Source: Candidatus Ruthia sp. Cpac_8_S14 (GTDB lineage Bacteria > Pseudomonadota > Gammaproteobacteria > PS1 > Pseudothioglobaceae). Taken from it: a stretch of 64,000 nt of DNA. This document shows positions 46,885 to 49,765 of the stretch, piece after piece. The first letter of the stretch is position 1, and every line of letters starts with the position of its first letter. A model generated the notes under the pieces. The model was not told where the DNA came from. It saw only the letters and a program-made list of their open reading frames with translations, and made no database searches. Both the position numbers and the translations under genes were made by a program. The stretch spans positions 434,001 through 498,000 of the forward strand of contig CP072533.1 of NCBI GenBank assembly GCA_021730205.1, read 5' to 3'.

Positions 46885-47277
46885 CTATTTATCTCGATCA
46901 CTCCAATAATCAGCTTTATTTGAAATCACCCAGCGCACACCGCCCTTAGGATTTTCAACATCGCCATTATATCTAGGAATCAAATGTACATGCAAGTGCA
47001 TAATACTCTGCCCTGCTACCTCGCCATTATTCACACCAATGTTATAGCCATCTGGGGAAAACTCCTCATCAAGAATAAGTTTAGCCGTTTGAATGGCTTT
47101 AGCAATCGCATTTTGCTCTTGTTCGGTAATATCAAAATAAGTAGCAACATGTCTTTTAGGAATAATCAGCGCATGTCCAGGAGAGGCAGGATAAGAGTCT
47201 AAAAACGTAATGGTTAAATCACATTGACCAATAATTTTTTCTTTACGCAATTGACAAAACAAGCAATCTGTATTCAT
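46885..47277 (-). CDS. HIT family hydrolase
   Basis: 130 residues of the histidine-triad superfamily, which hydrolyses nucleotide phosphoramidates or dinucleotide polyphosphates. The triad HLHVHLIPR is at about residues 95-103. An N-terminal CLFCQLRKEK carries the Cys pair seen in HIT proteins that bind zinc. Ends next to a terminator shared with ssb. Confidence 0.9.
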   Translation of the reverse strand: MNTDCLFCQLRKEKIIGQCDLTITFLDSYPASPGHALIIPKRHVATYFDITEQEQNAIAKAIQTAKLILDEEFSPDGYNIGVNNGEVAGQSIMHLHVHLIPRYNGDVENPKGGVRWVISNKADYWSDRDK

Positions 47278-47386: not shown

Positions 47387-47563
47387 TTATTGAGTATCTT
47401 CAATCGATACTAAAGACTTATCATTTTCTGTTTTAGCTGTTACTAGAATTGCTTGGTTGTAGCCATAATTCCAAAACGAATTGTCATAACTATTGCCATT
47501 CCAAAACGTGTTGTTGCCAAGATTCATTGGACTATTGCTATTCCAATTGTTATTTTTTTTCAT
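47387..47563 (-). CDS. Asn/Trp-rich small protein related to the sulfur-globule-like genes
   Basis: A 58-codon frame with ATG at 47563: MKKNNNWNSNSPMNLGNN, TFWNGNSYDNSFWNYGYN, then ILVTAKTENDKSLVSIEDTQ. The Asn/Trp/Tyr/Gly composition resembles the two neighbouring sulfur-globule-like genes, and the QAILVT tail resembles EQILVT in the decayed gene at 48115-48537. It has no signal peptide, so it may be the 3' remnant of a third copy rather than a working gene. Confidence 0.4.
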   Translation of the reverse strand: MKKNNNWNSNSPMNLGNNTFWNGNSYDNSFWNYGYNQAILVTAKTENDKSLVSIEDTQ

Positions 47564-47620
47564 ACTTTTTACTTCTTAATTAGCCCTCATTATAAACCTA
47601 ATACCTTGCTTTTAGCGAAA

Positions 47621-47646
47621 AAAAACCAGCACTAGTGCTGGTTTTT
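47621..47646 (-). terminator. Terminator of the sulfur-globule-like gene
   Basis: The perfect 26-base palindrome AAAAACCAGCACT/AGTGCTGGTTTTT lies 17 bases after the stop codon at 47663. Strong GC stem with flanking A/T runs. Confidence 0.85.
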
Positions 47647-47662
47647 AATCATAGCTTTTATA

Positions 47663-48046
47663 CTATTTTGCTGTTGGTGCTGCTGGCATAGTCGTTCTAG
47701 GTACAACTCCAGGCCCCCATGGGGTATTTGCATAACCATTAGGTGCAAAACCATAACCATTACGACCATAACCATAACCATAACCATTGCGACCATAATA
47801 ATTGTTATTATTACTCCAACCGTTGTTATCAAACTCATCAAACATATTACCCATTTCTTCTGGATACCAACGAGGGTCCCAAAAATCGTATGGGTTGTAG
47901 CCAAACATGCCATTATCTTCTTGGTAGCCATAACCGTTATAGTTGTTGTAACCATTGCTCCAAGGAGTGTTGTTACTATTCCAAAATGCATTCGCACTTA
48001 AGGTGAATGTCAGTACTACTATTGCAAGAATCTTTCTCATTATCAT
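47663..48046 (-). CDS. Sulfur-globule-protein-like secreted Gly/Asn/Tyr-rich protein
   Basis: 127 residues: signal peptide (MRKILAIVVLTFTLSANA, with MIM as alternative first codons) and a mature part made of Asn, Gly, Tyr and Trp (NYNGYGYQE, GYNPYDFWDPRWYP, YYGRNGYGYGYGRNGYGF), ending PAAPTAK. This repetitive composition and export signal match the envelope proteins of periplasmic sulfur globules (SgpA/SgpB type) of sulfur oxidisers. Such proteins coat stored elemental sulfur. It has its own strong terminator. A long opposite-frame reading across it is a composition shadow. Confidence 0.7.
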   Translation of the reverse strand: MIMRKILAIVVLTFTLSANAFWNSNNTPWSNGYNNYNGYGYQEDNGMFGYNPYDFWDPRWYPEEMGNMFDEFDNNGWSNNNNYYGRNGYGYGYGRNGYGFAPNGYANTPWGPGVVPRTTMPAAPTAK

Positions 48047-48114
48047 ATCTCCATATTAACTTTATTAAATCATTTTATATTATAACATGATAATATATTA
48101 ATTAAGATTAAAAT

Positions 48115-48537
48115 TTAAAAAGAATACGGATTACGTGACCTTGACGAGTAGTAGTAATTAGAGTAAAGGTTTGGTGCTTTACGATGGTTTGTTACTAGTA
48201 TTTGTTCAGGGTTAACAAATGACATAGCTGTAGGGTTTCATACATTAAAGCTGGCAAAGCGCTATTTTCTGCCTGATATGCCTGATTAGGCATTGGCATC
48301 TGGTTCATATTAAAGCGCGAGGCGTTGGTATTAAATGCTTGATTGTTATAGGGATAGGGGCAATTATAATGACGATTATTAGAACTGTTATTATTATTCA
48401 TCCTTTCCATCCAATGCATGAGTGTCCTAAACCGACCAATCGTTATTCTTATAACCAGAGCCATAACTGTTAAAGTCTAAAAATGCAGTTGCATTTAAAC
48501 TTGTGATTAACAATCCAAGTAATAATATCTTTTTCAT
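48115..48537 (-). pseudogene. Second sulfur-globule-like protein, frameshifted
   Basis: Begins MKKILLLGLLITSLNATAFLDFN, a signal peptide closely like that of the neighbour, then SYGSGYKNND and a stop. One frame over, the Asn-rich sequence continues (HWMERMNNNNSSNNRHYN, YPYNNQAFNTNASRF, MPMPNQAYQAENSALP). A second shift leads to SFVNPEQILVTNHRKAPNLYSNYYYSS ending at 48115. Two indels separate it from an intact gene of about 140 residues, so the loss is recent. Confidence 0.65.
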
Positions 48538-48612: not shown

Positions 48613-49765
48613 ATGAGCAAAACCATGATTCAAAAGCATAAATTAACCGAGCAAAACTATCGTGGCGAGCGTTTTAAAGATTGGCATATTTTAGTTCAAG
48701 GCAACAATGACTTACTCTCACTGACTCAGCCTCAAATTATCAAAGACATTTATAAAAATTATTTGAAAGTCGGTGCTGATATTATTGAAACCAACACCTT
48801 TAATGCAACACGCACTTCCATGTTTGATTACAAAATGGAAGAGTTAGCCTATGAAATTAATATGGGAAGCGTCAAACTCGCCAAACAAGCTTGCAGTGAA
48901 CTTTCAACAACTGAAAAATCAAGGTTTATTTGGCCCAGCTTCACGTACTTGCTCGCCCTCACCAGATGTAAACGACTCTGAATTTAGAAACGTCACCTTT
49001 GATGAGTTAGTTGATGTTATATATAGAGTCTACTCGCGGTTTGATTAAAGGTGGTGCGGATATTATTTTGATTGAAACCGTCTTTGATACACTCAATGCC
49101 AAAGCTGCTATCTTTGCCGTTGAGTAAATCTTTGAAAACGATGGTATTGAACTGCCAATCATGATTTCTGGCACCATTACTAATGCCTCTGCTCCGCGCA
49201 CCCTATCTGGGCAAATGACCGAAGCTTTTTATAACTCATTATGTCATGCTTAAGCCTATTGGGCTTAATTGTGCATTAGGGCCTGAGCTAATATGTGGCT
49301 GAAATATCATGCGCGGCTAACACTTACCTATCAGCCCTATCCAAAACGCTGGCTTACCTAATGAATTTGGTGAATATGGGCCTAGAATACCTTAACCATG
49401 AGCGGGAGCAAAGTCAGCGAATGTGCAAGTAAACCAAAATGTCGCTTATCGGGGTTTGAAGCTTTTAATATTGGTGATAAATTCACTGTTTGTAAATATT
49501 GGCGAGCGAACTAATATTATAGACTCAGATAAATTTAAACGCCTTATTCTTAACGAAAGAATATGAAGAGGCATTAGAACATTTGCCGTGTGCAAGTTGA
49601 AGAAGGCGCACAAGTAGTTGATATCAATATGGACGAAGGCATTCTTGATGGCAAAGCCGCTATGGTTCGTTTTATGAATTTAATCGCCTCAGAGCCTGAT
49701 ATTGCCAAAGTGCCACTGATGGTGTGGACTCTTCTAAATGGGAGATTATCGAAGCTGGCTTAAGC
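48613..49765 (+). pseudogene. metH: Cobalamin-dependent methionine synthase MetH remnant
   Basis: Starts in frame as MetH: MIQKHKLTEQNYRGERFKDW, LTQPQIIKDIYKNYLKVGADIIETNTFNAT. After a frameshift: [28 protein letters not shown], then [24 protein letters not shown] and a stop. Further right, FVNIGERTN (about 49485-49515) and [43 protein letters not shown] (about 49596-49720), ending in [12 protein letters not shown]. These are the homocysteine and methyltetrahydrofolate domains; the cobalamin and activation domains are gone. Confidence 0.9.

Follow-up and report, generated by a model that had tools for sequence, protein, structure and literature searches.

Gene B of a Candidatus Ruthia genome, a putative sulfur-globule envelope protein, and the decaying gene cluster around it

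Composition of the locus

The window analysed here is a stretch of 64,000 nucleotides (positions 434001–498000) of genome G000, a single contig of 1,184,132 bp that groups with Ca. Ruthia/Vesicomyosocius; it is the reduced genome of a sulfur-oxidising symbiont of the type found in deep-sea clams. The family (f1), which includes the cultured isolate Ca. Thioglobus autotrophicus EF1, is Thioglobaceae. An earlier note on this DNA described three neighbouring minus-strand sequences with abundant Asn, Gly, Tyr, and Trp, and these are indeed present at the positions it gave. According to alignments with homologues, they are members or remnants of three distinct paralogue families, below called A, B, and C. 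The cluster and its flank comprise the following features.

46885..47277, minus strand: HIT-domain gene flanking the cluster, used as a synteny marker (Pfam HIT, E 2e-24; adjoins it in many of the stretches read)
47387..47563, minus strand: what is left of paralogue C, 58 codons lacking the signal peptide and the centre (tblastn with the intact C of G040)
47618..47646, minus strand: intrinsic terminator of B, a hairpin with a T run (folding energy −17.7 kcal/mol, z −4.1)
47663..48040, minus strand: intact gene B, 125 aa, putative sulfur-globule envelope protein (open frame, GGAG before ATG; dN/dS)
47828..47917, minus strand: conserved core of B, residues 42–71, DNGxFGYNPYxxWDPRWYxEEMxNMxDEFD (36 homologues aligned)
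47987..48040, minus strand: signal-peptide-like N-terminus of B, residues 1–18, putative cleavage after ANA (pattern kept in alignment A1)
48079..48084, minus strand: conserved TATAAT before B, a presumed −10 element with TG one base upstream (conserved in the genus)
48115..48537, minus strand: paralogue A as a pseudogene with two indels, its frame ending after 36 codons (three-frame translation; A is intact in G039, G040, and other genera)

Beyond the HIT-domain gene, ssb lies on the opposite strand. Beside the cluster, positions 48613–49760 of the plus strand hold fragments of a gene resembling methionine synthase (E 2.5e-23 for homocysteine S-methyltransferase and 5e-9 for pterin-binding), apparently another pseudogene.

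The frame of B is open over the 127 residues previously assigned to its product, but a better start is the third of them, which stands behind GGAG and yields a protein of 125 aa. The GYGYG repeats and the strong terminator described earlier were confirmed, and a signal-peptide-like N-terminus, judged by pattern, is present as well; this pattern is conserved across the 36 B homologues of alignment A1, from which the signature DNGxFGYNPYxxWDPRWYxEEM was derived. The low-complexity composition noted for B also stands out: Asn, Gly, Tyr, and Trp make up 46% of the protein, the highest share among 17 ORFs of at least 60 aa with a crude signal-peptide pattern in a scan that covered the ORFs of the window only, followed by a piece of A (31%), with the rest at about 20% or less. 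The AlphaFold model of B, computed from an input alignment of the window sequence and 20 out of 39 B loci, has no confident fold (mean pLDDT 48).

Distribution in the Thioglobaceae and relation to sulfur-globule proteins

Matches to B were found in 48 out of 83 genomes of the family, its own counted, and in all 12 genomes of the genus; a profile search lifts the family count to 50 via two weak matches (G068, G079). The stretch around B was read in 39 of the 48 B-bearing genomes, and these loci include Thioglobus, Thiodubiliella, and Bathymodiolus-symbiont records. In EF1 (G061, read whole; genome of 1,512,449 bp, PMC4616170), genes A–B–B2–C occupy the same place, adjoining the HIT gene as the cluster of the window does, and B of the window is 60% identical to the EF1 copy (G061:C1:13918–14247). 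Besides the cluster, EF1 has two unlinked genes of a further type, D, which brings the candidates to at least six (A, B, B2, C, and two D). In genera g4, g6, g9, and g10, several genomes have A lined up with genes of the B, B2-like, or C type. In genus g8, which includes Thiodubiliella and Bathymodiolus symbionts, B stands alone in the ten read out of 12 genomes (by the composition filter), and no match to A was found in any of the 12; since some g8 genomes reach 2.8 Mb, reduction to B is not just a matter of genome size.

EF1 has periplasmic sulfur globules, and PMC6509183 lists four putative sgp genes for it, with three Sgp proteins measured. These sgp genes equal in number the four-gene row A–B–B2–C, which is suggestive, although the EF1 candidates number at least six. 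The window locus is comparable to these genes in that EF1 is a globule-forming member of the same family with A–B–B2–C at the same place beside HIT, and differs in that EF1 has the full set and two D copies, whereas B alone is intact in the window; the likeness is one of homology and synteny of the cluster, and the row may correspond to the four sgp loci of PMC6509183.

The direct comparison with known sulfur-globule proteins suggested by the earlier note yielded no match: the Pfam SGP model (PF17228) scored 8.8 bits (E 3.9) on the 127-aa frame against a cut-off of 26.7 bits, and the cut-off was reached by none of 36 B, 16 A, and 10 C proteins (best E 0.26, one B member). No PF17228 match at E ≤ 10 was found in the window's own genome or in ten genomes of the family, EF1 and R. 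magnifica among them, and no NCBIfam model reached its cut-off for B or for the four EF1 genes. Likely coat proteins of Thioglobaceae hence sit below the Pfam (B, A, and C) and NCBIfam (B and the four EF1 genes) cut-offs. Among 369 genomes of the class, 62 match PF17228 at E ≤ 0.01, 55 of them over the cut-off; 30 of these loci were fetched, an SGP-like frame was read in 16, and 11 proteins were aligned (A4), leaving out five longer SGP-like frames and 14 loci without a frame read.

At the profile level, similarity did emerge. The profile of mature B aligned to A4 with an hhalign score of 35.4 (probability 84, 60 columns). By comparison, 100 column shuffles of B reached 18.4 at most, and reversed B and reversed SGP gave 18.2 and 17.6; across all pairs with SGP, decoy scores peaked at 22.8, from the reversed decoys of A with A4 (22.8 and 22.6). 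The other paralogues behaved differently: A scored 10.3 (47 out of 100 shuffles as high), D scored 13.4 (16 out of 50 as high), and C was marginal, with 18.7 over 4 columns and a shuffle maximum of 17.8. In an earlier hhalign comparison, full-length B matched SGP with probability 97 over 53 columns, which became 66 over 12 columns when the first 20 residues were cut. Reversed alignments and column shuffles were adopted because per-sequence shuffling destroys conservation and is too weak a control, and all these scores come from pairwise tests on low-complexity proteins, as opposed to calibrated database searches. Thus B looks like SGP at the profile level beyond what composition gives, either as a distant relative or by convergence.

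SgpA and SgpB of Allochromatium vinosum are presumably assigned to PF17228. Together with SgpC and the other PF17228 proteins, they resemble B as small low-complexity proteins of rDsr oxidisers, exported in their case and predicted to be so in that of B; in place of the Gly/Met-rich core of SGP, B has the acidic/aromatic core WDPRWYxEEMxNMxDEFD and much Asn. According to PMC10386293, SgpA and SgpB can replace each other, a species has one to six sgp genes, and not all globule proteins belong to the SgpA/B/C type, as SgpD of A. vinosum demonstrates. SgpD is unlike B in possibly forming a coiled coil, a distinction drawn from its description.

The genomic context also points to sulfur oxidation. 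The gene dsrA was found over the curated cut-off in 47 out of 83 family genomes, namely, in 43 out of 48 with B and four out of 35 without it (both, 43; B only, 5; dsrA only, 4; neither, 31), an association with a Fisher p of 4e-13, which ignores relatedness. It is largely one clade contrast, mostly due to genus g5, which accounts for 29 of the 35 genomes without B and for 29 of the 31 with neither gene. The exceptions are G048, G050, G053, and G079, with dsrA and no B, and G045, G047, G055, G074, and G080, with B and no dsrA over the cut-off; in G045, G055, and G080, dsrA is in pieces. SoxB is over the cut-off in 50 out of 83 family genomes, own counted, and SoxC, the SoxCD subunit searched, in none of the 83, with seven weak matches below it; the window's own genome has dsrA and soxB over the cut-off and no soxC match.

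Taking homology and context together, a sulfur-globule function is the best available reading of B. We consider it probable that B is a periplasmic, family-specific sulfur-globule envelope protein and that the cluster, now in decay, is what remains of an ancestral set comprising at least A, B, and C. In this respect, the coat function proposed earlier holds as the best reading, given the synteny with EF1, the co-occurrence with dsrA, and the profile likeness to SGP, although the known SGP models miss the protein. B would be exported by the Sec pathway; its mature chain, in which Asn, Gly, Tyr, and Trp abound, would be largely disordered and have a single conserved segment, the acidic/aromatic core. 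It would bind and coat sulfur deposited in the periplasm by Sox without SoxCD, and the coat would hold this sulfur as small globules available to the rDsr pathway.

Alternatively, B could be a secreted low-complexity surface or matrix protein involved in adhesion, biofilm, or host contact and unrelated to sulfur, its link to rDsr reflecting clade history. Composition alone does not prove sulfur binding, the presence of B is mostly a contrast of g5 with the rest, and B is named by no curated model; moreover, Bathymodiolus symbionts carry B, yet, according to PMC4612132, mussel gills were a tissue in which no elemental sulfur had been detected. We nevertheless regard this explanation as unlikely. 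The B profile matches SGP beyond the composition controls, which A and D, likewise rich in Asn, Gly, and Trp, fail, and C passes only marginally. B is also found outside symbionts, in SUP05/Thioglobus plankton records, a distribution that does not point to a host-contact role. Finally, EF1 forms globules and gave no Pfam SGP match, and so another coat seems needed.

Sulfur globules serve as an energy store for many sulfur-oxidising symbionts. The gill symbionts of Calyptogena okutanii have electron-transparent vesicles that, as described, might store elemental sulfur (PMC4892456). If B is a coat protein, the B-keeping thiotrophic symbionts of Bathymodiolus are predicted to be able to make globules, although stored sulfur had gone undetected in the gills of mussels (PMC4612132).

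Decay of paralogues A and C, and the unlinked gene D

The upstream sequence had been described as two indels away from an intact gene. Compared to the intact A of G040, it indeed has a +1 and later a −1 indel. The intact A genes of G039 and G040 start with GTG (131 and 132 aa), and an intact GTG-started A was ruled out for the window. The first indel of the G036 gene (+2 relative to G040) nearly coincides in position with that of the window, so this lesion is possibly common to both; A of G036 further lacks 8 bases in the signal-peptide part and 2 near the end. Could A still be alive, with the indels being sequencing errors or the product being made by frameshifting? The two indels compensate each other, both flanks still resemble the intact gene, and the first indel recurs at about the same place in a relative. 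However, A of G036 has extra lesions of its own, other relatives have mere traces of A or nothing, the neighbouring C is likewise a remnant, and the first lesion, if common to G036 and the window, would itself favour real decay; we therefore find a living A highly improbable.

The third sequence, earlier reported to have no signal peptide, is a C remnant in which both the signal peptide and the centre are missing. The ILVT tail supposedly shared with A is a coincidence: ten out of ten aligned C proteins have Ile-Pro there, and among the A sequences seen only those of the window and G036 read ILVT. It was dropped as a family motif, being a chance likeness between the A and C remnants. The alignments comprise 16 members for A and 10 for C (138–199 aa), and the intact C proteins of the genus have 138–162 aa.

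Throughout the genus (n = 12), B is intact in all genomes. A is intact in two (G039, G040), broken in two (G000, G036), and present as traces in two (G034, G035), and gave no profile match at E ≤ 0.001 in the remaining six, although the DNA alignment shows short 3′ traces in some of these. C is intact in four (G039, G040, G043, G044), a remnant in two (G000 and R. magnifica, G037; genome of 1,160,782 bp, PMC3035367), and was not found at the locus in six. As these genomes are related, the tallies do not count independent events. The four genomes with intact C have 1.45–1.6 Mb, and the eight without it, 1.02–1.23 Mb; in these eight, the smallest of the genus, B alone is intact at the cluster locus.

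Outside the window, at L191:381–920 on the minus strand (G000:C1:590381–590920), beside icd, the genome has an intact gene D of 179 aa with GGSNWGPF-type repeats and a AFAKAQANAYAKG tail; a decayed piece of a second D copy is close to it. D homologues were read in G034, G051, and, as two copies, EF1. One was also read in part in R. magnifica, where a degraded D-like copy lies between icd and the D gene (G037 L188:749–967). Profiles of D and C align with a score of 47.8, the maximum of 50 shuffles being 18.4, and C and D form, by this comparison, a second group. The genome thus has at least two Sgp-like proteins, and B as the sole one was dropped as a candidate description on finding D. The earlier suggestion that paralogues were lost while one was kept stands for the cluster locus, where such loss recurs in the genus, but not genome-wide, as the intact unlinked D exists.

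In the ancestor, the coat may have been made jointly by several paralogues; the clam symbionts whose genomes are smallest would have lost A and C at the locus and kept B, with the C-like D elsewhere. More tentatively, reduction in vesicomyid-type symbionts might have repeatedly stripped the coat to B, perhaps with D, a natural knock-out in which B would be the minimal coat and A and C dispensable size or stability factors, the core of B being distinct from, and distantly related to, the motif of purple sulfur bacteria. The sulfur-globule coat is an already known kind of protein, and what is of interest is that the cluster has been trimmed repeatedly among relatives: since A and C are recurrently lost and B is retained, the question of which coat protein is essential becomes approachable by comparison, and in uncultured organisms. 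In the excerpts of the openly licensed literature, we found no paper on sgp gene loss in these clam symbionts.

Selection and expression signals of gene B

B is under purifying selection, with dN/dS of 0.13–0.22 in 11 comparisons with relatives from the genus; the HIT-domain gene yields 0.08–0.32 in six relatives. A hairpin with a T run similar to the B terminator follows the gene in 11 out of 12 genus genomes, the sole exception being R. magnifica, where none was found. TATAAT precedes B in all 12 genomes, and TGnTATAAT in 11. Seven out of 12 also have a TTTRCA hexamer, placed 17 bp before TATAAT; the window, G034, G035, G038, and G042 do not. The absence of the hexamer would fit a relic on its way out with a weakened promoter, but this explanation is very improbable, as both the extended −10 and the ribosome-binding site are intact, as are frame and terminator, dN/dS versus G036 is 0.18, and the four smallest genomes of the genus also have no hexamer and still have intact B.

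At a junction near 48099–48100 of the window (minus strand), bases upstream of the extended −10 of B are missing, including a TTTGCATA block seen in G036. On a larger scale, B lies at about 482 kb of G000:C1 on the minus strand and at about 562 kb of G041:C1 on the plus strand, and an inversion including B between the two genomes is likely, because dsrA and soxB keep their strand and rough position.
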